Part shown: positions 6,256 through 37,134 of the stretch, in pieces
Layout of the letters: each line of letters opens with the position of its first letter
Numbering within the stretch: position 1 is the first letter of the stretch
Assembly: GCF_000423525.1 (NCBI RefSeq)
Contig: NZ_AUID01000010.1
Location: 1-64,000 of the forward strand
DNA: 64,000 nt
Origin: Proteocatella sphenisci DSM 23131
GTDB taxonomy: Bacteria > Bacillota > Clostridia > Peptostreptococcales > Filifactoraceae
Reading direction: 5' to 3'
Notes under the pieces: generated by a model
What the model was told of the DNA's origin: nothing
The model's database searches: none
Seen by the model: only the letters and a program-made list of their open reading frames with translations
Translations under genes and position numbers: made by a program

Positions 6256-6313
6256 AAAAATCACCCGAAAAGCCACATTCAGTTTAACTGATCTGGCTTT
6301 TCGGGTGATTTTT
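6256..6313. terminator. Bidirectional intrinsic terminator between BKACE and GntR genes
   Basis: A perfect 20-bp inverted repeat (6256-6275 with 6294-6313, core CACCCGAAAAGCCA) has A-runs on the left and T-runs on the right. It can therefore end both the plus-strand BKACE operon and the minus-strand gntR-like gene, which converge here. Confidence 0.93.
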
Positions 6314-12215: not shown

Positions 12216-13511
12216 TTGATTAGTAAAATATTATTTTTAGTAATGCTGATTGCTATAAATGCGTTTTTTTCCGCGTCGGAAATGGCACTCATATCTCTAA
12301 AAGATAACAAGATAAAGATGATGGCAGGTGAAGGGGATAAGAAGGCCCAAAAACTGGTCAGGCTGCTTGCGGAGCCAGGCAGGTTTTTATCCACCATACA
12401 GATTGGTATAACGATTGTAGGATTTATGGCAAGTGCTTTTGCTGCGGAAAGTTTTGCGCAGCCGGTTGTAGAAGTGGTAAAGCGTCTGGGGTGGACCTCG
12501 GCCCAGGAATTGCTTAGGGTAATCACGGTCATACTTATTACAATTGTTCTTTCATATTTCACACTTGTACTTGGAGAACTCGTGCCCAAGCGAATTGCCA
12601 TGAAAAAATCTGAGGGAATAGCATTTTTTGTCGTGAATCCGCTCATGTTCTTATCTGGACTCATGCACCCCTTCCTAAGACTGGTGATGGCTTCGACCAA
12701 CTTTTTTGTAAGACTCTTTGGAATCGACCCCGCAGAACATGAGGAGAATGTGACAGAGGAAGAAATTCGTATGCTCATAGACGTGGGCGAGGAAAAAGGC
12801 ACTATTCATGAGAGCGAAAAAATAATGATAAACAATATTTTTGAATTTAACAATAAGATTGCTAAGGATGTAATGATTCATCGTATGGACGTAGTAAGCT
12901 TTTCTGTAGATTCAGGGATGGCAGAGGTCATAGAAATAATAGAAAAAGAAAAATATACTCGCATACCGGTATATGAAAAAAATATAGACAATATAATAGG
13001 AGTCTTGTATGTAAAAGATTTGATTCCTCTAATCAGTAAGGACTATGATGAGGAAATTAAAATAGGAGATATATTGAGAAAGCCTTTTTTTGTTCCTATT
13101 TCGAGGCGGATTGACAAACTTTTTATAGACCTGAAGCGAGCAAGAACACATATAGCCGTTGTAATCGATGAACATGGGGGAACGGCAGGAATAGTAACGA
13201 TCGAAGACCTGCTTGAAGAAATTGTGGGAAGCATAGAAGATGAATACGATGATGAAGAAATTGAAATAGTAGAGCTGGATAAAAAGACATACGAGATAAG
13301 CGGTATGATAACTCTAGATGAAGTCGACACCTTGTTTGATGCCGATTTTCCTGTAGATCAATATGAAACCCTGAGTGGATTTATAATAAATCTAATAGGA
13401 AGGATTCCACTTAATAATGAGAAAATAGAGGTGAGGTACGCAGATTTACGAATTGAAGTCCTTGAGGTTGTTGGAAAGCGTATAGAAAAAGTCAAGATTT
13501 ATATAGACTAA
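12216..13511 (+). CDS. HlyC/CorC (CNNM) family membrane protein with CBS domains
   Basis: 431 aa. N-terminal DUF21/CNNM transmembrane domain (about residues 1-185; three to four hydrophobic segments, NAFFSASEMALISL at the start), then two CBS domains (about 205-320) and a C-terminal CorC/HlyC domain (about 345-430). The family, often labelled hemolysin, is linked to Mg2+/Co2+ efflux. The start is TTG at 12216 with GAAAGGG about 10 nt upstream; the first residues MISKILFLVMLIAINAFF are expected. It is a single-gene unit between terminators and promoters of unrelated operons. Confidence 0.9.
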   Translation: MISKILFLVMLIAINAFFSASEMALISLKDNKIKMMAGEGDKKAQKLVRLLAEPGRFLSTIQIGITIVGFMASAFAAESFAQPVVEVVKRLGWTSAQELLRVITVILITIVLSYFTLVLGELVPKRIAMKKSEGIAFFVVNPLMFLSGLMHPFLRLVMASTNFFVRLFGIDPAEHEENVTEEEIRMLIDVGEEKGTIHESEKIMINNIFEFNNKIAKDVMIHRMDVVSFSVDSGMAEVIEIIEKEKYTRIPVYEKNIDNIIGVLYVKDLIPLISKDYDEEIKIGDILRKPFFVPISRRIDKLFIDLKRARTHIAVVIDEHGGTAGIVTIEDLLEEIVGSIEDEYDDEEIEIVELDKKTYEISGMITLDEVDTLFDADFPVDQYETLSGFIINLIGRIPLNNEKIEVRYADLRIEVLEVVGKRIEKVKIYID

Positions 13512-13695: not shown

Positions 13696-14730
13696 ATGGA
13701 AATGATGAAAGCTTTAGTAAAAAGACTGCCTGAAAAAGGACTGTGGCTTGAAGATGTAAAAAAACCAGAAGTACAAGAAGGTGAAGTACTTATTAAGATG
13801 CACAAAACTGCAATATGTGGAACTGATGTGCATATATACAAATGGGACGAGTGGTCTCAGGCAACTATACCTGTACCAATGACAATCGGACATGAGTTTG
13901 TTGGAGAAATAGTTGAAATTGGACCAGGGGTAAAAGATCTTGTGGTTGGAGATATCGTTTCAGGAGAAGGCCACATAGTATGTGGAAAATGTAGAAACTG
14001 TCTTGCTGGAAAGAGACATCTTTGCAAAGATACTCAAGGAGTTGGAGTAAACAGAACAGGAATATTTGCGGAGTATGCAACTATACCTGCTACAAATGTA
14101 TGGCTTTGTGACAAAAGCATACCTGAAGAAATTCTAAGCATATTCGATCCATTTGGTAATGCTACTCATACTGCACTTTCATATGATCTTGTAGGAGAAG
14201 ATGTTCTTATAACAGGGATGGGACCAATAGGAATAATGGCTGTTGCAATAGCAAGACATGCAGGAGCAAGAAATATAGTAGTAACGGATGTAAATGAATA
14301 TAGATTAAATCTTGCGCTTAAGATGGGTGCAAACAAGGCTGTAAACGTATCTAAAGAAAAAGTTGAAGATGCGATGAGAGAGCTTGGAATGAAAGAGGGA
14401 TTTGACGTTGGTCTTGAGATGTCAGGAAACGGCGCAGCTTTCAATTCTATGATAGACAACATGATACACGGCGGAAAGATAGCTATGCTTGGAATTCAGG
14501 GACCTGGAACACACATAGACTGGAACAAGGTTGTATTTAACGGTCTGTTCATCAAGGGAATCTACGGAAGAGAAATGTTTGAGACATGGTACAAGATGCA
14601 GGCAATGCTTCAGTCAGGACTTGATCTTTCACCAATAGTTACTCATCAGTTCCACTATACAGAGTTTGAAAAAGGGTTTGAAGCAATGATCTCAGGAAAT
14701 TCTGGTAAAGTTGTTCTTAACTGGATATAG
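13696..14730 (+). CDS. tdh: L-threonine 3-dehydrogenase
   Basis: 344 aa from the ATG at 13696 behind AGGAGG (13682-13687); an in-frame ATG further upstream would add 26 unlikely residues. Zinc-dependent medium-chain dehydrogenase: catalytic zinc region [10 protein letters not shown] with GHEFVG, structural zinc cysteines in [14 protein letters not shown], and the NAD site [10 protein letters not shown]. It oxidises L-threonine to 2-amino-3-ketobutyrate. It is followed 24 bp later by kbl, the partner enzyme, the standard Tdh-Kbl pair, supporting threonine fermentation to glycine and acetyl-CoA. Confidence 0.96.
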
Positions 14731-14754: not shown

Positions 14755-15945
14755 ATGTACAAATCATCGGTAGAAATATACAAAGATCAGCTTCAGGAAA
14801 TCAAAGACGCAGGTCTTTGGAAAGAAGAGAGAATAATAACTACACCTCAAAAGAGTGTAATAGATACTACACAAGCGACAAGTGTAATAAATATGTGCGC
14901 AAACAACTACCTTGGACTTTCCAACAATCAGGAAATAATCCAGGCAGCAAAGGACAGCTATGACAAGTGGGGATTCGGACTTTCTTCAGTTCGTTTCATC
15001 TGCGGAACTCAGGGAATCCACAAAGAGCTTGAGCAAAAAATATCTGAATTCCTGGCAATGGAAGATACAATACTTTACTCTTCATGTTTTGATGCAAACG
15101 GTGGACTTTTTGAGACTATAACTACAGAAAATGACGCTATAATCTCAGATGAGCTTAACCATGCTTCTATAATAGATGGAGTAAGACTTTCAAAAGCTAA
15201 GAGATACAGATACAAAAACAATAACATGGCAGATCTTGAGACTCAGCTAAAGCAGGCAGATGCTGACGGAGCAAGACTTAAGCTTATAGCAACTGACGGA
15301 GTTTTCTCAATGGACGGAATAATAGCTGACCTTGACAAGATATGTGACCTTGCAGACAAATACAATGCACTTGTAATGGTTGATGATTCCCATGCTGTAG
15401 GTTTTGTTGGAAAGACTGGCAGAGGAACTCATGAATACAGAAACTGTATGGACAGAGTTGACATAATAACAGGAACTCTTGGAAAAGCTCTTGGCGGAGC
15501 GAGCGGCGGATACACTTCAGGAAGAAAAGAAATAATCGATCTTCTCAGACAGCGTTCAAGACCTTACCTTTTCTCAAATACTCTTGCACCTGCAATAGCT
15601 GGAGCGACAATCAAAGTACTTGAGATGCTGACTGCTAGCACAGAGCTTAGAGACAAAGTTGAAGCCAATACAAAATACTTCAGAGATGAAATCAAGAAGA
15701 TTGGTCTTGACGTAATAGAATCAGAGCATCCAATATGCCCTGTAATGCTTGGAGACGCAGTTCTTGCTCAAAAATTCGCTGAAAAGATGCTTGAAAAAGG
15801 CGTTTATGTTGTAGGATTCTTCTTCCCGGTTGTTCCAAAAGGAAAAGCTAGAATAAGAACTCAGATATCAGCAGGACATTCAAGAGAAGATCTTGATAAT
15901 GCACTTAGAGCATTCAAAGAGACTAAAGAAGAATTAGGACTGTAA
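14755..15945 (+). CDS. kbl: Glycine C-acetyltransferase (2-amino-3-ketobutyrate CoA ligase)
   Basis: 396 aa, standard for this PLP-dependent alpha-oxoamine synthase family. Features: NNYLGLSNN near residue 50, the [11 protein letters not shown] aspartate-histidine motif that holds PLP, the PLP lysine in [12 protein letters not shown], and the [13 protein letters not shown] segment typical of Kbl. It cleaves 2-amino-3-ketobutyrate with CoA to glycine and acetyl-CoA. AGGAGG precedes the ATG; the gene is cotranscribed with tdh and followed by a terminator. Confidence 0.96.
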
Positions 15946-15965
15946 TTCAGTTTTGAATAATAAGG

Positions 15966-16000
15966 CAGGCTTTCCATTTGATGGAGGCCTGTTTTTGTGT
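15966..16000 (+). terminator. Intrinsic terminator after kbl; left copy of a repeated terminator sequence
   Basis: CAGGC-TTTCCAT / ATGGA-GGCCTG stem with a TTG loop, followed by TTTTTG. The same sequence, differing at three positions plus one inserted base, recurs in the same orientation at 23815-23850 at the end of the polysaccharide cluster that follows. Shared blocks are TTTCCATTTGATG and GGCCTGTTTTTG. Confidence 0.85.
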
Positions 16001-16042
16001 GAAAATTATTAAAAGTAATCGGGACGCTTAATTATGTTTATT

Positions 16043-16072
16043 TTGTCAAATTAATATGATAGAATATTATCA
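16043..16072 (+). promoter_or_regulatory. Candidate promoter and overlapping inverted repeat of cluster A
   Basis: TTGTCA (16043-16048), 16-bp spacer, TATTAT (16065-16070). An inverted repeat TGATA-gaatat-TATCA (16057-16072) overlaps the -10 box and could be an operator. It lies about 50 bp upstream of the first gene of the cluster. No c-di-GMP riboswitch motif is seen. Confidence 0.4.
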
Positions 16073-16119
16073 TACATGGAAAAAATTTAATAGTAGAGTT
16101 ATATTATTGTGGGGGGGAT

Positions 16120-16815
16120 ATGAATACAGTTTTGCGTAGGGAAGAAAAATATTCTATTCAATGGAATGAAGCTTTATTATTTTCTAATAAACTAGAACAG
16201 CTAATGCATAAAGATGAATTTTCAAAAGATGGCAGTTATATGGTACGCTCTTTGTATTTTGATACTATTGATGATAAAGATTTTTTTGATAAAATCAATG
16301 AACAGCAATTGCGTAGAAAAATCCGCTTGAGAATTTACGACCCAAATGATCAAACAGCAAAGCTCGAATTAAAACAAAAACAAGGTGTGTTTCAAAAGAA
16401 AAGATCTTTAACCATTTCTAAACAAGATGCAAATCGGTTAATTGTGGGGGACATATCTGTTTTGCTTGGTTACAACAGCGATTTTGCAAATGAAATATAC
16501 AGTATTATGTGCATGGAGTGTTACAAACCAAAGACGATTGTTGAATATAAACGAAAGGCATTTATGGCAAAAGAAAATCAAATTAGACTTACTTTTGATA
16601 GCAATATCCGAGCAAATGAAAGCTGTTTTGATTTATTTAACGAAGATTTATTGCTACATCCAGTTCTTGATGTTAATAATGTTATATTTGAGGTGAAATA
16701 TAATCAATTTATGCTTAGTTATATTTCAGATATGATTTCCAGCGTTGACAGGAGATCAGTATCTTCGAGTAAATATTGCCTGGGACGTTCGGTAGGATAC
16801 CCATTATACTTATAA
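16120..16815 (+). CDS. VTC-domain (polyphosphate polymerase-like) protein, copy A
   Basis: 231 aa, an essentially complete single VTC domain of the triphosphate-tunnel superfamily. The tunnel-lining basic and acidic pairs are visible: RREEKY at the N-terminus, MVRSLYFDT, RRKIRLRIY, KLELKQK, EYKRKAF, RLTFDSNIR, FEVKYN and SSSKYCLGR. In yeast Vtc4 this fold makes polyphosphate from ATP. In bacteria such free-standing domains usually lie beside DUF4956 and CotH genes, and their product is not established. GGGGGGAT precedes the ATG. Arginine codons are mostly CGT/CGC/CGA, unlike the AGA/AGG of neighbours. Copy B is at 24897. Confidence 0.88.
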   Translation: MNTVLRREEKYSIQWNEALLFSNKLEQLMHKDEFSKDGSYMVRSLYFDTIDDKDFFDKINEQQLRRKIRLRIYDPNDQTAKLELKQKQGVFQKKRSLTISKQDANRLIVGDISVLLGYNSDFANEIYSIMCMECYKPKTIVEYKRKAFMAKENQIRLTFDSNIRANESCFDLFNEDLLLHPVLDVNNVIFEVKYNQFMLSYISDMISSVDRRSVSSSKYCLGRSVGYPLYL

Positions 16816-16832
16816 AATTTTAGGAGAAAACA

Positions 16833-17540
16833 ATGGATAAATATTTTTACGATTTGATCAATAGCAGCGGTAATCTTCATTTTGAAGATATTGTAATACG
16901 AATTGCTTTTTCTGCAATAATGGGTATAGTTATTTATATTTCATATAAATTTACCCATGAAGGCACAGTATACAGTCAAAAATTCAACATTACTTTGATT
17001 GCACTTACTATTTTAACAACAACAGTAATGACTGTAATTGGCAATAATATCGCGCTTTCTCTGGGTATGGTAGGTGCATTATCTATTATTCGTTTTCGTA
17101 CGTCTATTAAAGACAGTCGAGATACGATTTATATTTTTTGGACAATAATTGTGGGGATTTGCTCTGGAGTTGGAGATTATACTGTAGCGTCGGTGGGAAG
17201 TGCTGCTGTATTTCTAATGCTGATGTTTTTTGGCCGGGTGAAAAACGATAATCGTATTTTAATTATCGTAAAAGGATCTCGATTATTAGAACAAGATATT
17301 CGTAAAGTGATGTTTGATTATTTTCCTATAGCACCTATGTTAAAAGTTAAAAACAGCACTTATGATAAAATTGAGTTGATTTATGAGATTAATAAAAACA
17401 TGTTAGACAAGGCAGAAAAGATAGAAACAAAAAAATCACTTGATGAACAACGCGCCAACAGAACAATTTTAGATATTTTATATGCACTTGGGGATATTGA
17501 ATATTCAAATATTGTCGTTCAAAATGATGAGATTACATAG
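16833..17540 (+). CDS. DUF4956-domain membrane protein, copy A
   Basis: 235 aa with about four N-terminal membrane segments and a soluble C-terminal half (from about residue 140). The family core GNNIALSLGMVGAL, RFRT, and the D-R-DT-YIFW segment at about residues 70-108 is nearly identical to copy B at 25648, although the flanks differ. Its function is unknown; the persistent linkage to VTC-domain and CotH genes suggests a membrane partner, perhaps a channel or anchor for the VTC enzyme, comparable to the membrane part of eukaryotic VTC complexes. It starts 17 bp after the VTC gene, with AGGAG upstream. Confidence 0.85.
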   Translation: MDKYFYDLINSSGNLHFEDIVIRIAFSAIMGIVIYISYKFTHEGTVYSQKFNITLIALTILTTTVMTVIGNNIALSLGMVGALSIIRFRTSIKDSRDTIYIFWTIIVGICSGVGDYTVASVGSAAVFLMLMFFGRVKNDNRILIIVKGSRLLEQDIRKVMFDYFPIAPMLKVKNSTYDKIELIYEINKNMLDKAEKIETKKSLDEQRANRTILDILYALGDIEYSNIVVQNDEIT

Positions 17541-17549
17541 GTGATTAAT

Positions 17550-19022
17550 ATGAAATATAAACTAATCTTTATATCTTGTATAGTTTTTATTATGCTGTCA
17601 TCAGTTGCCTTTGAAAATTTGGAATTACCGAAAAATCGTTACCATCAACACAAAAATCATGTCACAGATATATCATCTAAAGGATCTACAAATAATAATT
17701 TCTCGACTCATTTGCCATTAATAAATATTACTACTGACGCTCCAATACATAGCCCATATAGTGTGGATGAAAATGCGAATAAAGAGCGAAATGATGAAAT
17801 GGTATCTTCTACTATAAAATATTATGACAGCGAAATAAAAGATAATGCTTTGGAAGATATACCTGCTATAACAGAAAAAGCATTGATTCGTATTAGAGGT
17901 CGAAGTTCAAGAAGTTTTGAAAAAAAAGGATATTTATTGAAATTCAAAGAGAATAATCTAGTAGATAATAAAAAAATATCTCTTTCTGGAATGGTTGCAG
18001 ACAGTGATTGGGTGCTTCATGGCCCATACATGGATAAAACACTGATTAGAAATTACTTATGCTACAATCTTGCGGGAGAAATTATGGACTACAGCCCTAA
18101 TGTTAGATTTTGCGAAATGTTTTTAAATGGTGAATATCAAGGTTTATACTTACTTACCGAAAAAATAGAATATAACGATGACGGACGAATTGATTTTACT
18201 CAAACGGATCCTGATGTTATGTCTACGTCTTATATCTTGAGTTTTGATGTAGGCAGCGATGATCCTTTCTATGCACTAAATACATTCAATTTTTATACAG
18301 GTAGAAATGGTGCTAAAAATAAAGGCAGTGGAATGTTGGAAATTATATATCCAGGTAAAACTCTAACAACTGCTCAAAAAAGTTATATTGAAAATGACAT
18401 TTCACAATTTGAGAAGGCATTGGTTTCTTTTGATTCTTCTGACCCCAAGCGGGGATATCCTTCTTTCCTTGATATAGAATCTTTTGTAGATTATTTTATC
18501 ATAAGTGAATTTGCTATGAACTCAGATTCAGGAAGATTATCTACATATTTGTATAAAGATATAAGAGGTAAAATGAAGCTTGTAGTCTGGGATTTCAACT
18601 CGGCTTTTAACAATTATACTCCTGAAATGTCAGAACCTCATTATTTTATGATGACAGATAAAATTTGGTATCAGTATCTTTTGAAGGATACTGAGTTTGT
18701 AAATAAGATTGAAAAAAGATACAAAGAGCTAAGAAAAACATATCTAAGTGATGAATATCTACTTGATTATATTGATGAAACAGTGGCTTATTTAGGTCCA
18801 GCGATAGAGAGAAATAATGCAAAATGGGGATATAGCTTTTCTAAAGAATATGATCTTTTATTGCCAACGCAGAGAAATCCCCGAACCTATGAAGAAGCTT
18901 TGAAACAGTTAAAAGAAATAATCGTTGAAAGAGGCTCGTATATGGATAAAAATATCCAAAATCTATATTCTTTGGCACACGATTCTATAAATAAAGCTTT
19001 TAAAGAAGGAGTTGGTAAATAG
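17550..19022 (+). CDS. CotH kinase family protein, copy A
   Basis: 490 aa from the ATG at 17550, with AGGTGA at 17538-17543; a GTG at 17541 lies inside that site. An N-terminal hydrophobic segment (about residues 5-23) indicates export or anchoring. CotH signature elements: RIRGRSSRSFEKKGYLLKF, SDWVLHGPYMDKTLIRNYL, EYQGLYLLTEKIE and VVWDFNSAFNN. CotH proteins are atypical surface or spore-coat protein kinases. The DFD-type motif is DFN here (WDFN), while copy B has WDFD, so kinase competence is uncertain. Unlike copy B there is no C-terminal membrane segment. It is followed after 2 bp by the hydrolase gene. Confidence 0.88.
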   Translation: MKYKLIFISCIVFIMLSSVAFENLELPKNRYHQHKNHVTDISSKGSTNNNFSTHLPLINITTDAPIHSPYSVDENANKERNDEMVSSTIKYYDSEIKDNALEDIPAITEKALIRIRGRSSRSFEKKGYLLKFKENNLVDNKKISLSGMVADSDWVLHGPYMDKTLIRNYLCYNLAGEIMDYSPNVRFCEMFLNGEYQGLYLLTEKIEYNDDGRIDFTQTDPDVMSTSYILSFDVGSDDPFYALNTFNFYTGRNGAKNKGSGMLEIIYPGKTLTTAQKSYIENDISQFEKALVSFDSSDPKRGYPSFLDIESFVDYFIISEFAMNSDSGRLSTYLYKDIRGKMKLVVWDFNSAFNNYTPEMSEPHYFMMTDKIWYQYLLKDTEFVNKIEKRYKELRKTYLSDEYLLDYIDETVAYLGPAIERNNAKWGYSFSKEYDLLLPTQRNPRTYEEALKQLKEIIVERGSYMDKNIQNLYSLAHDSINKAFKEGVGK

Positions 19023-19024
19023 TA

Positions 19025-21169
19025 ATGAAAAAATATTTAATCTTTGTATTTATTTGTATTTTTTGTTATTTTTCCTACGATTATATTGTTTATTATAATG
19101 GAGACATGTATTTGCCTAATTCTGGAGAGGTGCGCAGTTTCACAAAATCAGAAGATGAAAAATTGTGGATTGATAAAGGTAATGGATTTGAAGTATTTGA
19201 TATCAGGGGAGTAAATCTGGGCCTTGGAAAGCCAGGGAAATTTGCAACTGAGTACGCAATCACCAAAGAAGAATATTTACGATGGTTTAAGCAGATTCAG
19301 GATTTAGGAGCGAATGTTATCCGTACATATACAATAGCTCATGAAGATTTTTACGAAGCGTTTTATGAGTATAATCACAATAACTCAGAACCGCTCTACC
19401 TTATACATGGAGTTTGGGTAGATGACTACCTTCTAAACTCTCACCGGAATGCATTTGATGACAGATTTTATAATGAATTTTTAAATAGCTGTAAAAATGT
19501 TGTGGATATAATTAATGGGAGACACAAGAATTCAAAGCTCCATCATGCAGGTTCCCAAACTTATAAAACAGATATTTCGCCTTGGGTATATGGATATATC
19601 ATAGGAGTTGAATGGGAAGGGGATATCGTTGCATTTACAAACAAAACCGGACCACAACTGGGCCAGTTTAAAGGTAAGTATTTATACACAGAAAATGCCA
19701 ACAATTTTGAGATATTTTTAGCGATGATAGGCGATGAAATGATTGACTATGAAACGAGGAAATACGGCAAACAGCGTACATTAGCTTTTTCAAATTGGCC
19801 TGTAACAGATCCATTTGAATATCCTGAAAATGTGGCCTTAGAAGTTCAAAAATTTGCACAAATTGATATGGATCATATCAAATCAAGCGATAGTTTTAAA
19901 TCTGGGCAATATGCATCTTATCATATATATCCTTACTATCCTGAATATATGTATTTTGTGGATGAAACAACTGAAAATACCTATCTTGCTTATTTGAAAA
20001 AATTGACAGAGCACCATCAGATGCCTGTGGTTATTTCGGAGTTTGGGATTCCATCGAGCCGCGGAATGGCATCTTATGAGAATAATAAAGAACTAGGTAG
20101 AAACCAAGGCTATATGAGTGAAAAAGAGCAGGGAGATGCACTGGTTTCACTTTATCAGGAAATTAAAAGTTCTGATTGCGCTGGGGGGATTGTGTTTGTA
20201 TGGCAGGACGAGTGGTTTAAGCGAACTTGGAATACATTTGCTTTTGTTGATTTGAATAAATCTATTTATTGGAGTGATTATCAGACAAACGAGCAAACTT
20301 TTGGTTTACTATCTTTTGACCCTGGAGAAGATAAGAGTATTTGTTATGTTGATGGGGACAAATCCGATTGGCAAGAAGATGATATTGTTGATGAAGACGA
20401 GGGATATAGACTTTCTATGAAATATGACGAAAAATTCATATATTTACTCGCTGAAAAAGAGGGTTTTGATCCAAATCTCGATAAATTGTATATACCGCTG
20501 GATATAACTCCTAAAAGTGGAAGCAAGTATATGGATAAGTATAAAATAAAAACCTCACATTCCACTGATTTTATGATTGAAATAGATACTGAAAACAAGA
20601 GTAGGATATGGGTACAGGAGCGTTATAATACAACGAATGCTATTTATGGTAGCCAGTTGATTCGCTCATACAATCAGTATGAAGATATTCCTGCAAAAGA
20701 TTCTGCGCAATTTGATAAAATCAAATTGGTTTTAAATGAGTTTAACTACTTTAATAATGGGGTGCCCATTACTTTTTCTATGTTAGATTTTACGAAAGGA
20801 GAGACATATTATAGTCTATCAAAATCTTATGAAACTGGAAAATTAACTTATGGTAATGCAAACCCCAAAGCAGATGATTTCAACTCATTGGCTGATTTTT
20901 CTTTTGGAAGTGATTTTGTTGAAATAAAAATTCCTTGGCAACTACTTAATTTTTCTGATCCATCTCAAATGAAAATCCATGATGACTACTATGAATATTA
21001 TGGGGTAGAGCACATGAGAATTGATCAAATAAATGTAGGACTAGGGAGCGATTCCAATACAATAGAAATGAAACCATTTAATCTCGTGAAGCTTGGAAAA
21101 AACCCTCAATATCATGAACGATTAAAAGAGTCTTATTATATACTTCAGGACTTTTGGAGCAATAATTGA
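19025..21169 (+). CDS. Membrane-anchored TIM-barrel glycoside hydrolase-like protein with CBM9-like C-terminal domain
   Basis: 714 aa. A signal anchor (residues 3-22) precedes a clan-A-like barrel at about residues 50-420, beginning FDIRGVNLGLGKPG and resembling the GH2/GH5-type fold. Candidate catalytic carboxylates are Glu196 or Glu198 (IGVEWEGD) and Glu339 (VISEFGIP), the spacing expected for strands 4 and 7. From about residue 440 a VDGDKSDWQEDD motif starts a beta-rich region like CBM9/DOMON sugar-binding modules. It follows CotH by 2 bp. The likely role is trimming or sensing the polymer made by the GT2 at the end of the cluster, as endoglucanases do in cellulose loci. The CAZy family was not recognised with certainty. 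Confidence 0.7.
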   Translation: MKKYLIFVFICIFCYFSYDYIVYYNGDMYLPNSGEVRSFTKSEDEKLWIDKGNGFEVFDIRGVNLGLGKPGKFATEYAITKEEYLRWFKQIQDLGANVIRTYTIAHEDFYEAFYEYNHNNSEPLYLIHGVWVDDYLLNSHRNAFDDRFYNEFLNSCKNVVDIINGRHKNSKLHHAGSQTYKTDISPWVYGYIIGVEWEGDIVAFTNKTGPQLGQFKGKYLYTENANNFEIFLAMIGDEMIDYETRKYGKQRTLAFSNWPVTDPFEYPENVALEVQKFAQIDMDHIKSSDSFKSGQYASYHIYPYYPEYMYFVDETTENTYLAYLKKLTEHHQMPVVISEFGIPSSRGMASYENNKELGRNQGYMSEKEQGDALVSLYQEIKSSDCAGGIVFVWQDEWFKRTWNTFAFVDLNKSIYWSDYQTNEQTFGLLSFDPGEDKSICYVDGDKSDWQEDDIVDEDEGYRLSMKYDEKFIYLLAEKEGFDPNLDKLYIPLDITPKSGSKYMDKYKIKTSHSTDFMIEIDTENKSRIWVQERYNTTNAIYGSQLIRSYNQYEDIPAKDSAQFDKIKLVLNEFNYFNNGVPITFSMLDFTKGETYYSLSKSYETGKLTYGNANPKADDFNSLADFSFGSDFVEIKIPWQLLNFSDPSQMKIHDDYYEYYGVEHMRIDQINVGLGSDSNTIEMKPFNLVKLGKNPQYHERLKESYYILQDFWSNN

Positions 21170-21218
21170 AATTTTATTGAGTTATACCTGATGATTTTTA
21201 TTAGTAAGGAGGAAGTTT

Positions 21219-22376
21219 GTGAATATAATAATCGAAATTTATATCTTTGTGTGTGCGATGTTACTATTGTTTGATGTTGTTTTTTTGATTACTAAAAATT
21301 TAAAAAATCGAAAATTTCATCCACAAAAGAACAAATTAAAGAATATGATACAAATTGAATTGCAGAATTATGATCCTGCAGTAGGTTTGAGTAACAAATT
21401 GAAAGATTTTCTAGAAAACAAAATAGAAAAAACTAAAAATCTAATTATTTTACAAAATGAGCTTGAACGCACCATAAGATATAAAAAAAATATCCAAGTT
21501 GAAATAAGACCCTACATTTTAAACAAAATTGATATTTATCTAAACAAAAACGAGTATGAACAGGCATACTATGCCTATGTGGTGTCTTGTTTTGACTACG
21601 AAAAAGAAAAGTATGATGAAAAATTTTATTCGAAATTTTTATTATTTTTGGATAGCAAGTCTCTATATATTTTCTCTAATGCTATGAATGCTATCTACAA
21701 GTTTGCAGATCCTTATCTTATGTCAGTTGCAATTCAAAAAGTAAACGAGAAAAATGGATTTTATCACAGCAAGTTATTTGTTGATGGATTGTTGAAATTT
21801 GATGGAGATTCAGACAGACTTAACTCCTTAATAATTGACGATTTTTATAAATATTCAGCTTTGACACAAGACAGCTTGTTGACATACTTTAGATTAAAAG
21901 GTGCAAATGTAGATAAACTTTGTCTTGATATTTTGAGAAATCGAAAAGTTGACGATGAGGTTTTATATGCTGCAATGAGATATTTTGCAAAATATCCTAA
22001 TGAGCAGGCAAAGAAAATATTTACTGAGCTTCTACAAGCAGAGGAAACTTTTTGGGTAGAGCAGCTCCTTGCTATTCAAGCTTTAAAACATTATGATGAG
22101 CCGTTGGTAAGACACTTAATTAAAGAAAAAATTACAAGTAGAAACTGGCATGTGCGAATCAATGCTATCGGATATCTTCACAATAAGGGATTGGGGCAAG
22201 ATGAGATTTTGAATATTTTATCGCTTAGCGATAAATATACTAATGAAGCACTGTTACATTATTATAAAGATGATATGGAAATTTCAAAATACATCAGGGA
22301 CACTATGAGTGCTATAAACACGGAGCAAAATAAAGTTCAAGAAATTGAGTCACCATTAGTGTTGGCTATTTCATAA
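21219..22376 (+). CDS. HEAT-like-repeat protein with N-terminal membrane anchor
   Basis: 385 aa, GTG start at 21219 behind AAGGAGG (21206-21212). One N-terminal transmembrane helix (about residues 3-23) is followed by a basic stretch, a helical region and, from about residue 150, alpha-helical pairs of HEAT-repeat style (for example ILRNRKVDDEVLYAAMRYF and the WHVRINAIGYLHNKG region). The gene lies between the hydrolase and the glycosyltransferase. Such anchored helical-repeat proteins are often scaffolds; a role in assembling the synthase complex is inferred. The closest named family is not identified. Confidence 0.65.
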   Translation: MNIIIEIYIFVCAMLLLFDVVFLITKNLKNRKFHPQKNKLKNMIQIELQNYDPAVGLSNKLKDFLENKIEKTKNLIILQNELERTIRYKKNIQVEIRPYILNKIDIYLNKNEYEQAYYAYVVSCFDYEKEKYDEKFYSKFLLFLDSKSLYIFSNAMNAIYKFADPYLMSVAIQKVNEKNGFYHSKLFVDGLLKFDGDSDRLNSLIIDDFYKYSALTQDSLLTYFRLKGANVDKLCLDILRNRKVDDEVLYAAMRYFAKYPNEQAKKIFTELLQAEETFWVEQLLAIQALKHYDEPLVRHLIKEKITSRNWHVRINAIGYLHNKGLGQDEILNILSLSDKYTNEALLHYYKDDMEISKYIRDTMSAINTEQNKVQEIESPLVLAIS

Positions 22377-22391
22377 GAAGGGAGAAATAAA

Positions 22392-23804
22392 ATGTTTGAT
22401 TTTTTATATAATATCTTTACTATTGAAATGGTTAAAATTATTTTGTACTACACAGAGATATTTTTTGTTATTTATCTTTTAGGATATTCAACTTTCTTAT
22501 TTATTTCTGTAGTGAGTGGAGGAAATGAGTTATTTGAAAATATTAAAAAGAAGGAACTTCGTAATGAAATAAAACATGAATATTACGTGCCCATAAGCAT
22601 TATTGTTCCAGCATACAATGAAGAAATAACCATTGTCGAAACAATAAAGTCTCTAATAAATCTAAATTATAAAATTTATGAAATTATTATTGTAAATGAT
22701 GGATCCACAGATCATACTCTAGATACGGTAATTGAGAATTTCAATTTAAAACTAATAAATCAGCCAATAAGAAAACAGCTTGATTGTGAAGATGATGTTG
22801 CAGTCTATGAAAATACTAAGGAAAACAAGATACCTGTGACCTTGATTAACAAGGTAAATGGCGGTAAGGCGGATGCTATTAATATGGGTATCAATGCTTC
22901 TAAATATCCCTATTTTGTATGTATGGACGCGGATTCTATTTTACAAGAAGACTCTCTTACAAAAATAGCAGTTTCAGTTTTGGAAAATCAAGATGTTATT
23001 GCTGTAGGGAGTATGATACGTATTTCAAACGACAGTATTTTTGAAAAGGGAAAACTTGTAAAGTTACGATTACCCAAGAAATTGATTTCGGCACTACAAG
23101 TATTAGAATATGAGCGTTCCTTTTTGGCTTCACGTATTTTTTTAGATAAATTCAATGCGAATTTAATTATATCAGGAGCTTTTGGCTTGTTTGAAAAAAA
23201 AGCAGTAATTAATGTAGGAGGCTATCAAGTCGGATCTATGGGAGAAGACATGGAGCTCATAGTAAAACTGCATTCTTATTATAAGTCGAACAAATTACCC
23301 TATAAAATCAAATATGCGTATGAAGCAGTTTGTTGGACGCAGGTCCCTGAACGGCTAAGGGATTTATTAAAGCAAAGAAAAAGATGGCATATTGGATTAT
23401 TTCAGAGTCTTACTCAACATAAAAATCTGTTTACAACTGGTAGTTATTTATACTACTTAATTTATGAACTGCTATCTCCGTTTATTGAATTAGGAGGACT
23501 GTTTGTTACGTTACTTGCAGCTGTATTCGGCTTATTAAATGTAAAATACATGATTGGATTTTTCCTGGTATATGCTTTATTTGGGTCCGCATTAACAGTT
23601 ATTTCATTCCTTACAAGAAACTTTTTAAGTGATACAAAAATCGAGTTTTGGGATGTTTTAAAAGTTGTTATTCTATGTGTTCCGGAAAATATTCTTTTCC
23701 GTTTTATAATGGCTTGGACTAGAATGCTGGCACTGTTGTTTTATCGTGGTAAAAAAACAAATTGGGGAGATATAAAACGAGTAACAATCAATTACAAATC
23801 TTGA
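22392..23804 (+). CDS. Processive glycosyltransferase family 2 protein
   Basis: 470 aa. One or two N-terminal membrane helices, a GT-A catalytic domain (about residues 55-335) and three C-terminal membrane helices, the layout of poly-N-acetylglucosamine or hyaluronan-type synthases. Motifs: IIVPAYNEE, NDGSTD (about 101-106), DADS (about 178), GED (about 283, catalytic base) and QRKRW (about 326), together the D,D,D,QxxRW signature of processive beta-glycan synthases. It lacks a PilZ domain, unlike the synthase of cluster B. It is the last gene of cluster A and ends just before a terminator. The polymer is unknown. Confidence 0.9.
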   Translation: MFDFLYNIFTIEMVKIILYYTEIFFVIYLLGYSTFLFISVVSGGNELFENIKKKELRNEIKHEYYVPISIIVPAYNEEITIVETIKSLINLNYKIYEIIIVNDGSTDHTLDTVIENFNLKLINQPIRKQLDCEDDVAVYENTKENKIPVTLINKVNGGKADAINMGINASKYPYFVCMDADSILQEDSLTKIAVSVLENQDVIAVGSMIRISNDSIFEKGKLVKLRLPKKLISALQVLEYERSFLASRIFLDKFNANLIISGAFGLFEKKAVINVGGYQVGSMGEDMELIVKLHSYYKSNKLPYKIKYAYEAVCWTQVPERLRDLLKQRKRWHIGLFQSLTQHKNLFTTGSYLYYLIYELLSPFIELGGLFVTLLAAVFGLLNVKYMIGFFLVYALFGSALTVISFLTRNFLSDTKIEFWDVLKVVILCVPENILFRFIMAWTRMLALLFYRGKKTNWGDIKRVTINYKS

Positions 23805-23814
23805 CATAAAAAAA

Positions 23815-23850
23815 CAGGTTTTCCATTTGATGAAGGGCCTGTTTTTGCGT
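23815..23850 (+). terminator. Intrinsic terminator after cluster A; right copy of the repeated terminator
   Basis: CAGG/CCTG-ended imperfect stem around CCATTTGATG followed by TTTTTG. It is almost the same sequence as the kbl terminator at 15966-16000, in direct orientation, 7.8 kb away. It lies between the GT2 stop and the convergent metF gene. Confidence 0.8.
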
Positions 23851-23865
23851 TTAGATTTCTCTTTT

Positions 23866-24732
23866 CTAAAACATGGAATCAAATGTATCTTTACAGCTGG
23901 CAGCTATTTCAGGCTTGTTCATGGAATAGATATGAATATTTTTATGTCCGTTTTTAACCAGATCTTCTATCTGCATGCAGGTGTATTCGATTCCAGCTTT
24001 TTTGAGATCTTCTGGACTATGTTCGTATTTGTGAAGTATTTTTATTATACTCGATGGGAGGCTCACTCCGCACTGAAATATCATTCTTTGTATCTGGGTT
24101 TTCCCAAGTATAGGCATAAGTCCTGCAACTATAGGCTTGTTTATACCCCTGCTTGTAGATTCTTCTTTAAATCTGAAAAAACTTCCGTTTTCGAAGAAGA
24201 GCTGAGAAACAAAAAAATCTGCACCGGCAAGCTGTTTTTCGTAAAGATGCTCATAATTGGCATTGGTATTTTCGCATTCTATATGACCTTCTGGATAACA
24301 CCCTGCACCTATACTGAAGTTGCCATTGTCTTTTATAAATTCGATAAGATCTCTGGCATGTTCAAAATCGCCTTGTGTTGTGTTTGAGTTCCCCTGGGGT
24401 ATGTCGCCTCCAAGCGCCATTATATTTTCTATATTTTTTTGTTTCATTTCTTGGAGCATGGATTTCATTTGGGACCTGTATGTGCCCCTTGCAGTAAGAT
24501 GGACCATAGGCTCTATGTTGAGGGAATTCTTTATATGGGAGGCAAGCTCTATGGATTTAGAATTGTTGTCTATTTCGCCGGATCCATATGTTACGCTTAT
24601 ATATCCAGGACTCAGCGAGGATATCTTTGAAAGTGAATCTGTAAGTACATCTGAGGGACTGTCTTGTCTTGGTGGAAATACCTCGAAGGATATGACCGGG
24701 TTTTTTATTTCGTACAATTTTTTTATGTGCAT
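23866..24732 (-). CDS. metF: 5,10-methylenetetrahydrofolate reductase
   Basis: 288 aa, the normal length of bacterial MetF. FAD/folate-binding TIM barrel features: SFEVFPPR at the N-terminus with the catalytic glutamate, SVTYGSG, VHLTARG, MALGGDIPQG and DFFVSQLFF. It reduces methylenetetrahydrofolate to methyltetrahydrofolate for methionine synthesis or, in acetogenic types, the methyl branch of the Wood-Ljungdahl pathway. No metV-like or other one-carbon genes are adjacent. AGGAG lies 8 nt before the ATG. It is transcribed toward cluster A from its own promoter. Confidence 0.95.
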   Translation of the reverse strand: MHIKKLYEIKNPVISFEVFPPRQDSPSDVLTDSLSKISSLSPGYISVTYGSGEIDNNSKSIELASHIKNSLNIEPMVHLTARGTYRSQMKSMLQEMKQKNIENIMALGGDIPQGNSNTTQGDFEHARDLIEFIKDNGNFSIGAGCYPEGHIECENTNANYEHLYEKQLAGADFFVSQLFFENGSFFRFKEESTSRGINKPIVAGLMPILGKTQIQRMIFQCGVSLPSSIIKILHKYEHSPEDLKKAGIEYTCMQIEDLVKNGHKNIHIYSMNKPEIAASCKDTFDSMF

Positions 24733-24793: not shown

Positions 24794-24896
24794 CAAATAG
24801 ACAGAATTGTAGCAAAATATAGCTGATAATATTTAAATACTTGAAGATAAGGGTATATAGATAAATAACTTAAATTGTTGGATGGGAGGGAAAATA

Positions 24897-25619
24897 ATGT
24901 CTGATGAAAAAACACTGCTGGATGTGTCCAGAACAGAAAAAAAATATGGTATTTCTAAGATAACCGCCAGTAATATGAGGCGGATTTTTTCAACAACATT
25001 AAAGTCTGACAAGCATAATACTGGGGACGGGTATATGGTGAGATCGCTTTATTTTGACAGTTATGACGACAGTGATTATTATGATAAGGAAGATGGATAT
25101 AACTACAGAAAAAAAATAAGGCTGCGAATTTATTCGACAGACTCAGAAGTTGCAAAACTTGAAAAAAAAGAAAAGGTTGGGAGTAATCAGTGGAAACGCA
25201 GTCTCAGCATATCCAAATCAGATGCACTAAAACTCATAGATGGGGACTTTTCACCCCTTATAGAAGATGGTTCGGATTTTGCTTTTGAAATGTATGAAAT
25301 AATGACCATAGGCATTTACAGACCAAGGTGCATAATTGAGTATGACAGGGTTGCTTTTATTGTAGAAGAAAATGACATAAGACTTACTCTGGATTCAAAT
25401 ATCAGGGCGACTGAGAGCAATTTTGATTTATTTTCAGAAAATCTCCAGTTTTATCCGGTTAGTCATCCTACAGAAGTTACTCTTGAGGTCAAATATGACA
25501 ATTTTTTATTCAGTTATATAAAAGAAATGCTTGCCCTGTGTGACAAAAAACAGATTTCTAACAGTAAATATATAATGGGAAGAAGTGTCAGCAGGTTTAA
25601 CTCGGACGGTTTTATTTAG
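24897..25619 (+). CDS. VTC-domain (polyphosphate polymerase-like) protein, copy B
   Basis: 240 aa from the ATG at 24897 behind GGGAGG (24885-24890); an ATG at 24882 overlaps that site. It has the same triphosphate-tunnel motifs as copy A: SRTEKKY, MVRSLYFDS, RKKIRLRIYS, KLEKKEK, EYDRVAF, RLTLDSNIR, LEVKYD and SNSKYIMGR. Amino-acid similarity to copy A is evident throughout, but codon use differs: arginine here is mainly AGA/AGG, like the rest of the window. It is the first gene of the cellulose-type cluster B. Polyphosphate or related nucleotide-polymer chemistry is the family expectation; the product is unproven. Confidence 0.88.
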   Translation: MSDEKTLLDVSRTEKKYGISKITASNMRRIFSTTLKSDKHNTGDGYMVRSLYFDSYDDSDYYDKEDGYNYRKKIRLRIYSTDSEVAKLEKKEKVGSNQWKRSLSISKSDALKLIDGDFSPLIEDGSDFAFEMYEIMTIGIYRPRCIIEYDRVAFIVEENDIRLTLDSNIRATESNFDLFSENLQFYPVSHPTEVTLEVKYDNFLFSYIKEMLALCDKKQISNSKYIMGRSVSRFNSDGFI

Positions 25620-25647
25620 ATATTATTCACAATGATTTGGAGGACTT

Positions 25648-26328
25648 ATGAAAGAGCAAATATTGAATTTACTGGTAACAAACACCGCGGCGCTTACACT
25701 CGAAGATATATTGCTGAATTTTCTGGTAGCCGGCATACTTTCCATGGTTATATATATGTCCTATGCACTTTCTCATGCAGGGCCTGTGTACAGTGCTCGT
25801 TTTAATGTGTCTCTTGTGATGATGACCCTTGTGACAACACTGGTAATGAATGTAATCGGTAATAATATAGCGCTTTCTCTGGGTATGGTAGGTGCGCTTT
25901 CGGTAGTAAGGTTCAGGACAGCAATAAAAGATCCCCGTGATACAGCTTATATTTTCTGGGGAATTGCAGTAGGCATATGTTGTGGGGTAATGGAATATAT
26001 AATTGCTACAGTAGGAAGTATAGTAATATTCCTGTTTTTGATAATCTTTGGATTTGTTAAGGCGAATGACAGATATCTTCTTATTGTAAGAGGTGAGCGC
26101 CCGAGTTCAACAGACATAAAAAAGACGGTGGACAGGGTATACAACGGTAAGGCGAGTCTGAGGGTAGAAAATTCAACGGAAAAAACGGTAGAATTTATAT
26201 ATGAACTTTCTATGTCACTTGTAAATAAAGCTAAGAAGAAAAATATGGATGTAACTGAGGAATTATACAAAGTTCAAGGGATTTCAAATGTAAATCTTGT
26301 ATGCCAGAATGACGAGATTAATAGATAA
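25648..26328 (+). CDS. DUF4956-domain membrane protein, copy B
   Basis: 226 aa. Several membrane segments over about residues 20-140, then a soluble domain. The GNNIALSLGMVGAL, RFRT, KDPRDTAYIFW core matches copy A almost residue for residue. GGAGG precedes the ATG, 28 bp after the VTC gene. Its function is unknown; conservation of the VTC-DUF4956-CotH order in two clusters in this window supports an obligate partnership. Confidence 0.85.
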   Translation: MKEQILNLLVTNTAALTLEDILLNFLVAGILSMVIYMSYALSHAGPVYSARFNVSLVMMTLVTTLVMNVIGNNIALSLGMVGALSVVRFRTAIKDPRDTAYIFWGIAVGICCGVMEYIIATVGSIVIFLFLIIFGFVKANDRYLLIVRGERPSSTDIKKTVDRVYNGKASLRVENSTEKTVEFIYELSMSLVNKAKKKNMDVTEELYKVQGISNVNLVCQNDEINR

Positions 26329-26342
26329 AGGGGAATGCTATA

Positions 26343-27968
26343 ATGACAAAAAAGCGAATTGCCGCAATTTTTGCATCGACGCTTATTTGTATTATTGTAA
26401 TAGGTATTTCGATGTATACCAACAGAGACCAGAGCCGGTCCCTCATGGGATCCTACCACAGAGAGCTGCCGGCAGCCAGCTGGGATGGTGATGCACTCCA
26501 GGGTATTGACGAAAAATTTTCAGTGGATAAAAATTTTTCCACGCATCTTCCTCTTGTGATAATAGATACAGCTGGTATGCAACCTCCCATATACACAGAG
26601 AAGAGGCTAATAAAAGGCTTTATGATATATGCTGATATAGAGGGTATAGAACCCTACGTAAAAGGAAGTATAAGTATAATAAGTGGAAATGAAAAGAACA
26701 CTATAGGTGACAAGCCGGTCAGTACCAGCCAGATGCTTATAAAGCGAAGAGGAAACTCTTCCATGTATTATGCAAAGGCTCAGTATCTGTTGAAGCTAAT
26801 AACTGACAAGGGTGAAGAAAACAAGGTATCCATACTTAACATGGGTGAGGACAATGAATGGATACTTAATGGCTCGATGGCTGACAAGAGCATGATAAGA
26901 AACTACCTTCCCTACAAGACGGCAGCGCAGATTATGCCCTATACCCCTGATAATGAGATTTGTGAAGTTGTAATTAAGAATGGTGAAGACTATACCTATC
27001 AGGGCGTATATCTTATAGGAGAAAATATAAAGCAGGGCAAGGACCGAGTGGATATAGAAAAATTCAAAAAATCTTCAAGGGCAAACAGCATGCTGCTAAG
27101 GCGTGACAGGTATGATGAAAATGATACGATTTTAGATACCTATGCCACAAAAAATAAGTTATCAAAAAGATATGAATCAAGGAGATATATGGGGATAACC
27201 TATATAGGACTCCTTTATCCTGGCAAAAAAAATGTAACCAAGGACATGATCGATTATGCTACAGATGAGATAAGTACTATAGAAAAAATATTATACTCTG
27301 GTGATTTTGATATTTATTCGACCTATGACAGATATATAGACGTAGATTCTTTCGTAGATTATTTTTTAATCAACGAGTTCTTTGGAAGTTATGACAGCGG
27401 AAATTTTTCGACCTACATGTACAGAGATGTGGGCGAGAAGCTCAAGATGGGTCCTGTGTGGGATTTTGACGGAGCCTTGGATAACTATATTCATGAACCT
27501 CTGGAGGTTGGTGTAATGGCTTTTCATATAAAACCTCTGTTTGACAGACTGGTTAGGGATGAAGCTTTTATTGAAAAACTCGAGTACAGGTATGCACAGC
27601 TTAGAAGAGGTGTACTGAGTGATGAAAATATCAATAAATCCATAGATGAAATAGTTAATTATATAGGACCTGCTCAGGAGCGTGAGTGGGCAAGGTGGTC
27701 AGAGGAGTACACCAAAGATACTGATTTGAGCGTGGAAACTTATTATGATGGAGAGGGCTATGTATATAGGAACAGCCTTGAATATTCAGGTGAGATATAT
27801 AATATAAAGACTAATTTGAGAAAGCATGGGAGTACAATAATGAATAGCCTTGATGAGCTCAAGGGCAGCTGTATATGGCAGACAAGGTGGAGCAGCAGGG
27901 CTGATATTGCACTGCTTCTGACTATGCTGATTACTCTGGTTTCGGTCATTTATATTAAAAGAATATAG
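26343..27968 (+). CDS. CotH kinase family protein, copy B, with C-terminal membrane anchor
   Basis: 541 aa. An N-terminal hydrophobic segment (about residues 6-22) and a second C-terminal one (SRADIALLLTMLITLVSVIY region, about 517-536) bracket an extracytoplasmic CotH domain. Elements: MLIKRRGNSSMYYAKAQYL, NEWILNGSMADKSMIRNYL, TYQGVYLIGENI, DYFLINEFFGSYDSGNFSTY and PVWDFDGALDN with an intact DFD. It starts 14 bp after DUF4956. It probably phosphorylates an exported protein or other acceptor at the cell surface; the acceptor is unknown. Confidence 0.88.
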   Translation: MTKKRIAAIFASTLICIIVIGISMYTNRDQSRSLMGSYHRELPAASWDGDALQGIDEKFSVDKNFSTHLPLVIIDTAGMQPPIYTEKRLIKGFMIYADIEGIEPYVKGSISIISGNEKNTIGDKPVSTSQMLIKRRGNSSMYYAKAQYLLKLITDKGEENKVSILNMGEDNEWILNGSMADKSMIRNYLPYKTAAQIMPYTPDNEICEVVIKNGEDYTYQGVYLIGENIKQGKDRVDIEKFKKSSRANSMLLRRDRYDENDTILDTYATKNKLSKRYESRRYMGITYIGLLYPGKKNVTKDMIDYATDEISTIEKILYSGDFDIYSTYDRYIDVDSFVDYFLINEFFGSYDSGNFSTYMYRDVGEKLKMGPVWDFDGALDNYIHEPLEVGVMAFHIKPLFDRLVRDEAFIEKLEYRYAQLRRGVLSDENINKSIDEIVNYIGPAQEREWARWSEEYTKDTDLSVETYYDGEGYVYRNSLEYSGEIYNIKTNLRKHGSTIMNSLDELKGSCIWQTRWSSRADIALLLTMLITLVSVIYIKRI

Positions 27969-27998
27969 GTCTTAAACGAGATGAGACGGGAGAAAACT

Positions 27999-29426
27999 AT
28001 GCTATTTACAAATTTTGTATTCTTATTTTATTTTTTTCCGGTGGCCATAGCGGTTTATTATATTTTTAGTTTTTCAAAAAATCTCAGAAATATATGGCTG
28101 ATACTCATAAGTCTTGTTTTTTATGGCTGGGCTGAGCCGCTATATATATTTGGCCTTATGGCTCTGATAGTATTAAATATGGGTATGGGAATAATCATAG
28201 AAAAAAACAAAGACACTAAAGCATTTCTGATTTTTGCCATAGGACTCAACATACTGGTTTTATTTGCCATGAAATATCTGGACCTTACTGCCAGTGTTAT
28301 TACTGAAATATCTGGCTACAGGCTCCTATTTAATTTGGGACTGCACATACCCATAGGAATTTCATTTTTCGTTCTAAGAGCAATATCTTACCTGGTGGAT
28401 ATATACAGAGGCAAGACTCAGGCCACCAGTAATATTATAGATCTGGGACTTTATTTTGCCTTCTTTCCAATCCTTATTGCAGGGCCCATCGTTTCATTTC
28501 AAGAGATGAGACCTCAGATTAAAGATAGAAAGCACAACTTGAATCGGGTGGCTGTGGGTTTTTCCAGATTTGTTACAGGATTTGCCAAGAAGGCAATTCT
28601 TGCCAATGCTTTTGCACTTATTGCTACAAGAATATTTGATCTTTCTACAATAGGAAAATCAATATACGATGTGCCAGCCCTCCTGGCTTGGCTGGGAGCA
28701 CTGACCTTTGTGCTTCAGATATATTTTGATTACTCAGCCTACTGTGATATGGCAATAGGACTTGGACTGATCTTTGGATTCAAATTTCCGGAGAACTTTA
28801 ACTATCCTCTTTCAGCCATAACGGTTACCCAATTTTGGAAAAGGTTCAACATCACCCTCTTTGGGTGGTTTGACGAGTATCTTAGCAAATCTCTTTACAG
28901 AGAAGATAAAAAGAATAAAGACAGGGCCATAAGAAATACTTTGATACTCTGGGTGCTCATAGGATTATGGCACGGACCCAATTTGACCTTTGTGGCCTGG
29001 GGCATTTTCAATTTCGTTTTAATAATAATGGAAGAATTTTTGGACATGGATGAGTGGAAGGTTAAACCTGTTTTTTTAAGGGTATATACCATACTTGTCA
29101 TAACACTTGGTTTTGTAATTTTTAAGGCAAAAGACCTCTACCAGGCAGGTATATATATTGGCAATATGTTTGCCAGAAATCATAATGGTTTCTATTCTGA
29201 TATAGCAATGATGTATCTTAGAGAATATGGAGCTCTTTACATTTTGGGAATAATATTTGCAACTCCACTGGCAAGAAAGATAAACAGCGGACTTATTAAA
29301 ATGAAGTGGGGAAGGAAAACTGTAGCTTACAATGCAATATACCCCTTGTTTATGACGATTTTATTTGTAGTTAGTGTGGCTTATATAATAGTTTTGGGTA
29401 ATACGGAATTTGTTTTTTACAGATAG
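27999..29426 (+). CDS. MBOAT-family O-acyltransferase (AlgI-like)
   Basis: 475 aa from the ATG at 27999, with GGGAG at 27988-27992; an ATG at 27981 lies upstream of that site. About ten membrane segments and the AlgI/DltB core: PIGISFFVLRAISYLVDIYRG, FGFKFPENFNYP and the invariant histidine of LWHGPNLTF at about residue 324. AlgI-type proteins pass acetyl groups across the membrane for polysaccharide O-acetylation. With the following AlgX/DHHW-like gene and the downstream synthase it fits the clostridial cellulose (Ccs-type) arrangement, in which the polymer may be acetylated. Confidence 0.92.
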   Translation: MLFTNFVFLFYFFPVAIAVYYIFSFSKNLRNIWLILISLVFYGWAEPLYIFGLMALIVLNMGMGIIIEKNKDTKAFLIFAIGLNILVLFAMKYLDLTASVITEISGYRLLFNLGLHIPIGISFFVLRAISYLVDIYRGKTQATSNIIDLGLYFAFFPILIAGPIVSFQEMRPQIKDRKHNLNRVAVGFSRFVTGFAKKAILANAFALIATRIFDLSTIGKSIYDVPALLAWLGALTFVLQIYFDYSAYCDMAIGLGLIFGFKFPENFNYPLSAITVTQFWKRFNITLFGWFDEYLSKSLYREDKKNKDRAIRNTLILWVLIGLWHGPNLTFVAWGIFNFVLIIMEEFLDMDEWKVKPVFLRVYTILVITLGFVIFKAKDLYQAGIYIGNMFARNHNGFYSDIAMMYLREYGALYILGIIFATPLARKINSGLIKMKWGRKTVAYNAIYPLFMTILFVVSVAYIIVLGNTEFVFYR

Positions 29427-29436
29427 GCGGTCTGAC

Positions 29437-30681: not shown

Positions 30682-30711
30682 TAGTTTTAAAGCTAAAGGA
30701 GGAGAGAGAAT

Positions 30712-31554: not shown

Positions 31555-31556
31555 AC

Positions 31557-34980: not shown

Positions 34981-35020
34981 AAAATCTACCTCTGGATTTA
35001 AAGACCAGAGGTGGATTTTT
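34981..35020. terminator. Bidirectional intrinsic terminator between GH5 and efflux operon
   Basis: A 15-bp stem (34981-34995 with 35005-35019, core CCTCTGG/CCAGAGG, one G-T wobble) with A-run left and T-run right and a 9-nt loop. It separates two convergent operons; the minus-strand stop codon touches its right edge. Confidence 0.9.
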
Positions 35021-36393: not shown

Positions 36394-36409
36394 TATGCGT
36401 TCCTCTCGA

Positions 36410-37120: not shown

Positions 37121-37134
37121 TTTTTAAAACTCCT

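Follow-up and report, generated by a model that had tools for sequence, protein, structure and literature searches.

The 64,000-nucleotide stretch of Proteocatella sphenisci DSM 23131 analysed here (contig NZ_AUID01000010.1, positions 1 to 64,000; hereafter the window) carries, between kbl and metF, six genes designated cluster A. It is likely that cluster A is an acquired exopolysaccharide operon which replaced metH-act at an ancestral locus of the form kbl>T<metH<act<metF, having entered at the terminator T with duplication of T. The genes are foreign in phylogeny and composition, occur in the same order in unrelated hosts and are absent from G001, a second genome of the genus; the window's genome has no metH, and a 50-bp direct repeat unique to this locus marks the two borders. 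We infer that recombination at the terminator caused the duplication. As a whole, the case is a clean and mostly ordinary gene-cassette acquisition with an unusually clear border scar.

Origin and composition of cluster A

All six genes lie on the same strand and encode, in order, a VTC-domain protein, a DUF4956 protein, a CotH kinase, a glycosidase resembling clan GH-A enzymes, a HEAT-repeat protein and a GT2 synthase (A1 to A6). Homologues exist gene by gene in Anaerotignum sp. MB30-C6 and in about a dozen Clostridia. The closest known relative comes from Anaerotignum, where all six genes are present in identical order with identities of 70% (VTC), 68% (DUF4956), 62% (CotH), 66% (glycosidase), 48% (HEAT) and 75% (GT2), whereas the RpoB proteins of the two genomes are only 64% identical. 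Conversely, the operon of a genome of the same family (G004) is only 35-53% identical to cluster A, with RpoB at 79%. Gene and species trees accordingly conflict: in both the GT2 and the glycosidase trees the window's genes (G000) group with those of Anaerotignum at 100/100, while in the RpoB tree the window's genome falls inside its own family (99-100) and Anaerotignum among other genomes. The distribution is patchy, with a match to A4 in 28 of 391 genomes of the class (22 of 223 genera), and a 67-kb plasmid from Planococcus maritimus, a member of the Bacilli, also has the six-gene order. Since the Anaerotignum copy is itself low in guanine plus cytosine (GC), below both rpoB and the neighbouring gene hcp, both the window's genome and Anaerotignum may be recipients of the operon.

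Base composition delimits the same region. A maximum-likelihood fit of two boundaries over positions 8900-35000 placed a low-GC island, coinciding with cluster A, at 15991-23970 (no strand), with a GC fraction of 0.314 inside and 0.377 outside; the support ranges of its borders (15651-16081 and 23215-24225) include both copies of the repeat, and the log-likelihood gain was 48, whereas 60 block shuffles never gave more than 21. The AT-richer DNA that an earlier note on this stretch had described between the two terminators is thus confirmed, its limits coinciding with the repeats. That note had also reported a shift in arginine codons towards CGN, which is confirmed, such codons making up 47 of 90 in cluster A but 73 of 436 in the other genes of the window, which served as reference in place of the whole genome (Fisher p 1.6e-11), and 35 of 162 in the neighbouring cluster B (p 1.3e-6 against A); AGA nevertheless remains the single commonest arginine codon even in cluster A (40%). 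The use of TTA/TTG for leucine and ATT for isoleucine is also raised, and CGN use in the Anaerotignum operon is similar to that of cluster A. The tetranucleotide profile, which the earlier note had put forward as a check, failed to set cluster A apart within the window, and single-cut entropy segmentation did not isolate it either. The largest tetranucleotide deviation in the window lies at 35001-40000, which holds a membrane fusion protein gene and two ATP-binding cassette exporter genes; these are on the minus strand, and their orientation may account for some of the deviation.

Phylogeny, synteny and composition together strongly support horizontal acquisition of cluster A. The presence of a second, related gene group nearby nevertheless raises the question of local duplication. 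Cluster B (24882-34980, plus strand; VTC-DUF4956-CotH-MBOAT-AlgX-like-MBL-BcsA-like-GH5, the first three genes scanned against Pfam and the other names read from the sequence) is paralogous to cluster A in its front half: both possess the VTC-DUF4956-CotH trio and they are separated by ca. 1 kb that contains metF, as would be seen if A had arisen by tandem duplication of B and then diverged, or if it had long been resident and was lost in the sister species. Such an origin is extremely unlikely, since A3 shares 38% identity with its CotH counterpart B3 and 62% with the Anaerotignum protein, codon use differs between the two clusters, that of B being native-like, and the two trees mentioned above unite cluster A with Anaerotignum. 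For the CotH protein of cluster B, no relative closer than A3-type genes (35-38%) was found in the family. That foreign contig DNA was artificially joined to kbl and metF is hardly credible: the genome is indeed a draft of 45 contigs, but cluster A and both flanks lie within one 90.9-kb contig, estimated contamination is 0.06%, and 50 bp of repeat would be little to cause a mis-join.

The border repeat and the kbl-metF site

Two near-identical terminators in the same orientation, sharing TTTCCATTTGATG and GGCCTGTTTTTG, occur at the borders of cluster A as the earlier note had described, and their homology proved longer than had been claimed. The left copy, T1 (15953-16000, plus strand), is the intrinsic terminator of kbl; the right copy, T2 (23801-23850), is a bidirectional terminator for A6 on the plus strand and metF on the minus strand, its first 4 bases overlapping the A6 stop codon. 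They align over 50 columns, of which 42 are identical (84%), with 6 substitutions and 2 single-base gaps, and the pair was recovered in a blastn self-comparison of the window at E = 1.3e-5. For each copy a hairpin followed by a U run is predicted (folding z -3.6 and -3.3). T2 has U tracts on both strands, whereas in T1 that of the minus strand has been lost, and the A7 run preceding the hairpin in T2 is replaced by AATAAGG in T1.

Hairpins followed by T runs are common to intrinsic terminators and the stretch is just 50 bp long, so that the likeness of T1 and T2 could in principle have arisen independently of the insertion, through a common terminator family, gene conversion or chance. The chances of this are slim, given that the letters of loop and stem are shared, beyond mere shape, that both copies sit at island borders, and that the pair scores 56, the window's terminator-like sites forming 189 pairs of which the runner-up scores 23. 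Many similar terminators elsewhere would have favoured a common origin of that sort; the 13-mer core TTTCCATTTGATG instead occurs exactly twice in the 2,411,055-base genome, at T1 and T2, and a search of the 2.41 Mb gave no third exact copy. The full motif was likewise absent from all 10 other genomes of the family and no match was found in viral contigs, and both a general terminator family and a phage or att sequence were rejected as identities for T on these grounds. The sequence is therefore not common at unrelated operon ends; its frequent occurrence there is what the earlier note had named as speaking against its proposal.

The flanking genes indicate what stood at the site before. On the left, tdh (threonine dehydrogenase, 13699-14730, plus strand) and the adjoining kbl (glycine C-acetyltransferase, 14755-15945, plus strand) are resident, being 96% and 95% identical, respectively, to their homologues in G001, where they are also adjacent. 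On the right, metF (23866-24732, minus strand) is without act and metH, its ancestral downstream partners. In G001 the order is tdh, kbl, a terminator, metH, the small gene act and metF, with no cluster A between kbl and metF; the arrangement is hence not conserved in this genome of the same genus, whereas its conservation in all relatives was the other outcome that the earlier note had regarded as adverse to insertion. The metF-act-metH order also occurs in another genome of the family (G007). When metH was sought in the window's genome (98.7% complete, metF retained), only stretches of corrinoid-binding domains matched. The ancestral locus was thus probably kbl>T<metH<act<metF, and the window's lineage lost metH-act and gained cluster A. 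G001 has metH-act at the site, while there is no metH in the window's genome; the event therefore amounts to a net replacement. What the earlier note proposed, a 7.8-kb polysaccharide cassette inserted between kbl and metF, stands as to acquisition but not as a simple insertion. It had suggested checking whether close relatives have kbl directly followed by one terminator and metF; in G001 the operon is missing between the two genes, but metH-act lies there. The metF of the window has just 70% identity with its G001 counterpart, against 95-96% for tdh and kbl; it may have evolved fast after the loss of metH, or have been exchanged.

Before the operon arrived, a single bidirectional T would have lain between convergent kbl and metF (kbl stop, 7 nucleotides, T, 15 nucleotides, metF stop); joining the two genes through one T would indeed give a compact convergent pair with ordinary spacing on both sides. 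Either recombination or break repair would then have brought the operon in at T, duplicating T. T1, henceforth serving only kbl, would have lost its minus-strand U tract, and T2, now stopping both A6 and metF, would have kept both. Of the two roles that the earlier note had offered for the terminator, a duplicated end fits the data, and a recombination site is conjectural, there being no recombinase in the cassette and no repeat at 12 other loci of the same operon.

Several observations weigh against this reconstruction. None of the six open reading frames filling the repeat interval encodes a recombinase, integrase, transposase or relaxase. Direct repeats flanking the operon were sought in Anaerotignum, in G004 and at 11 additional loci, 12 of these 13 having both flanks long enough to be informative, and none exceeded shuffled sequences. 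The kbl terminator of G001 is unrelated in sequence to T, which is absent from that genome; T could therefore have come with the cassette or have arisen in this lineage. An empty kbl-T-metF junction was not seen in the two genomes of the genus, G001 carrying metH-act there. The polysaccharide product and all protein functions, moreover, are predictions.

The first of the origins just mentioned, in which the operon was acquired but T1 and T2 came along as cassette-end repeats of the donor, neither being the old terminator of kbl or metF, is unlikely though the best placed of the alternatives considered. The unrelated kbl terminator of G001 means that T need not be ancestral, and T is unique to this locus, both of which suit such an origin; but no T-like repeat accompanies the Anaerotignum operon or 11 other copies, viral contigs contain no T, and the spacing between T2 and the metF stop is usual for a terminator, the U tract of T2 on the minus strand being suited to metF. 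Border direct repeats, one of the features by which integrative mobile elements are recognised, are thus present here, but they are imperfect and unique to this copy of the operon. Since other copies lack them, such repeats do not belong to the cassette in general, and the terminator duplication, matched at none of 12 other loci, resembles a scar left by a single event. Under entry at a resident T with duplication, which we continue to favour, this scar remains readable and hints at a way for such a unit to insert where two genes converge, with no recombinase of its own. The wider notion that bidirectional intrinsic terminators between convergent genes are preferred landing sites for recombinase-free cassettes, the duplicated copies specialising and homologous pairs marking past insertions, is speculative and very doubtful.

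Predicted products and neighbouring genes

The best reading of the gene content is that cluster A directs a polysaccharide that would be synthesised at the membrane and trimmed outside the cell. A1 (16120-16815) encodes a VTC-domain, polyphosphate polymerase-like protein of 231 aa (Pfam PF09359, 1.8e-40), A2 (16833-17540) a DUF4956 membrane protein of 235 aa (PF16316, 2.2e-13) and A3 (17550-19022) a CotH-family kinase of 490 aa (PF08757, 1.2e-64). A5 (21219-22376; 385 aa, hydrophobic N-terminus) is assigned as a HEAT-repeat protein from synteny and a weak Pfam match below cut-off (HEAT_2, 3.4e-4). A6 (22392-23804; 470 aa) is a processive-type GT2 synthase (PF00535, 4.5e-26) whose nearest NCBIfam model is PgaC/IcaA (2.9e-38, under the cut-off of that family); it carries DADS, GED and QRKRW, which we take to be motifs of processive synthases. 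The GT2 of Anaerotignum exceeds A6 by 22 aa, which raised the suspicion that A6 is cut short at the repeat; this was rejected, most homologues sharing the A6 endpoint. All these genes, and A4, are on the plus strand.

A4 (19025-21169) encodes a protein of 714 aa, membrane-anchored at its N-terminus, for which Pfam, NCBIfam and a sequence search of the PDB gave no match. Its AlphaFold model, of moderate confidence (pLDDT 71), resembles GH157 and GH5/GH2/GH72-type barrels in the PDB with low TM-scores, the best structural match being a GH157 glycosidase solved with laminaritriose (E 5.5e-10, low TM-score). Two glutamates, E196 just after strand 4 and E339 on strand 7, do not vary among 13 homologues and occupy what are presumably the acid/base and nucleophile places of clan GH-A, so that A4 is likely a clan GH-A-like barrel enzyme with these residues as its catalytic pair. 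In such a system A6 would be responsible for both polymerisation and export of the sugar, the anchored A4 would trim or transfer chains outside the cell, and the VTC, DUF4956, CotH and HEAT proteins would together serve as a membrane-located module with an accessory or regulatory role.

Other polysaccharide genes occur around the locus. In G001 a cluster encoding a glycosidase, a fused HEAT-GT2 protein and an MBL-GGDEF-response regulator lies directly before tdh on the opposite strand (L041, G001:C317, 1235-9361); its products are 38-45% identical to A4 and A6 and its codons native-like. A different GT2 gene follows metF in that genome. Polysaccharide modules thus differ between the two species and flank tdh-kbl on one side in G001 and on the other in the window. 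In this genus the surroundings of tdh-kbl-metF may be variable in their polysaccharide genes, although two genomes are a small sample. In the window, the position of the G001 cluster is occupied by a CorC/HlyC-like gene (12216-13511, between an M20 peptidase gene and tdh) with 9 of 19 arginine codons CGN and the lowest codon adaptation in the left flank, hence this slot may be variable too. A near-perfect inverted repeat of 58 bp was also noted at 6256-6313, in the intergenic region that separates a BKACE-like gene from one for a GntR regulator, and no Rfam element was found in 12000-36000.

Comparison with known systems

Gram-positive pelDEADAFG loci carry CotH/PPP/DUF4956/DUF4832 accessories (PMC7112168), and cluster A has the same VTC(PPP)-DUF4956-CotH trio beside a polysaccharide synthase. 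Instead of pel genes it possesses the GT2 synthase, the GH-A-like enzyme and the HEAT protein, and the Pfam scan of A1-A6 gave no homologue of pelF, pelG or pelA.

The Anaerotignum operon (NZ_CP133078.1, L063 7095-14819) has all six genes in order at 48-75% identity, with homology beginning ca. 30 bp upstream of A1; unlike cluster A, it occupies a different insertion site and has neither a flanking repeat nor T. The P. maritimus XJ11 plasmid (NZ_CP059541.1, L161), from a host of another class, carries VTC, DUF4956, CotH, hypothetical, HEAT and GT2 genes ordered as in cluster A, its GT2 being 47% identical to A6.

In Clostridium perfringens, NELoc-2 encodes a VTC protein, a "tubulin/FtsZ" protein, CotH, a 685-aa protein, a HEAT protein of 377 aa and a GT2 of 466 aa (PMC2879425, Table 4). 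This order, compared through the published table and not at the DNA level, matches A1-A6 if the "tubulin" protein is DUF4956, as its size and position suggest. NELoc-2 is a chromosomal locus that varies between strains and sits in place of 1374 bp or of 165-168 bp (PMC2879425, PMC5964661), and no repeats were reported around its resolvase gene (PMC2879425). It differs from cluster A by this resolvase, a sigma factor and a second VTC/"tubulin" pair; neither a resolvase open reading frame nor a second VTC/DUF4956 pair was found in 16002-23800. Cluster A is thus of the same operon type as NELoc-2 but no copy of it. The occurrence of the same gene order on the Planococcus plasmid and in NELoc-2 makes this a kind of operon already known, and the NELoc-2 type, mainly known as a strain marker of C. 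perfringens, emerges as a widely travelling six-gene unit found in Clostridia, in Bacilli and on a plasmid.

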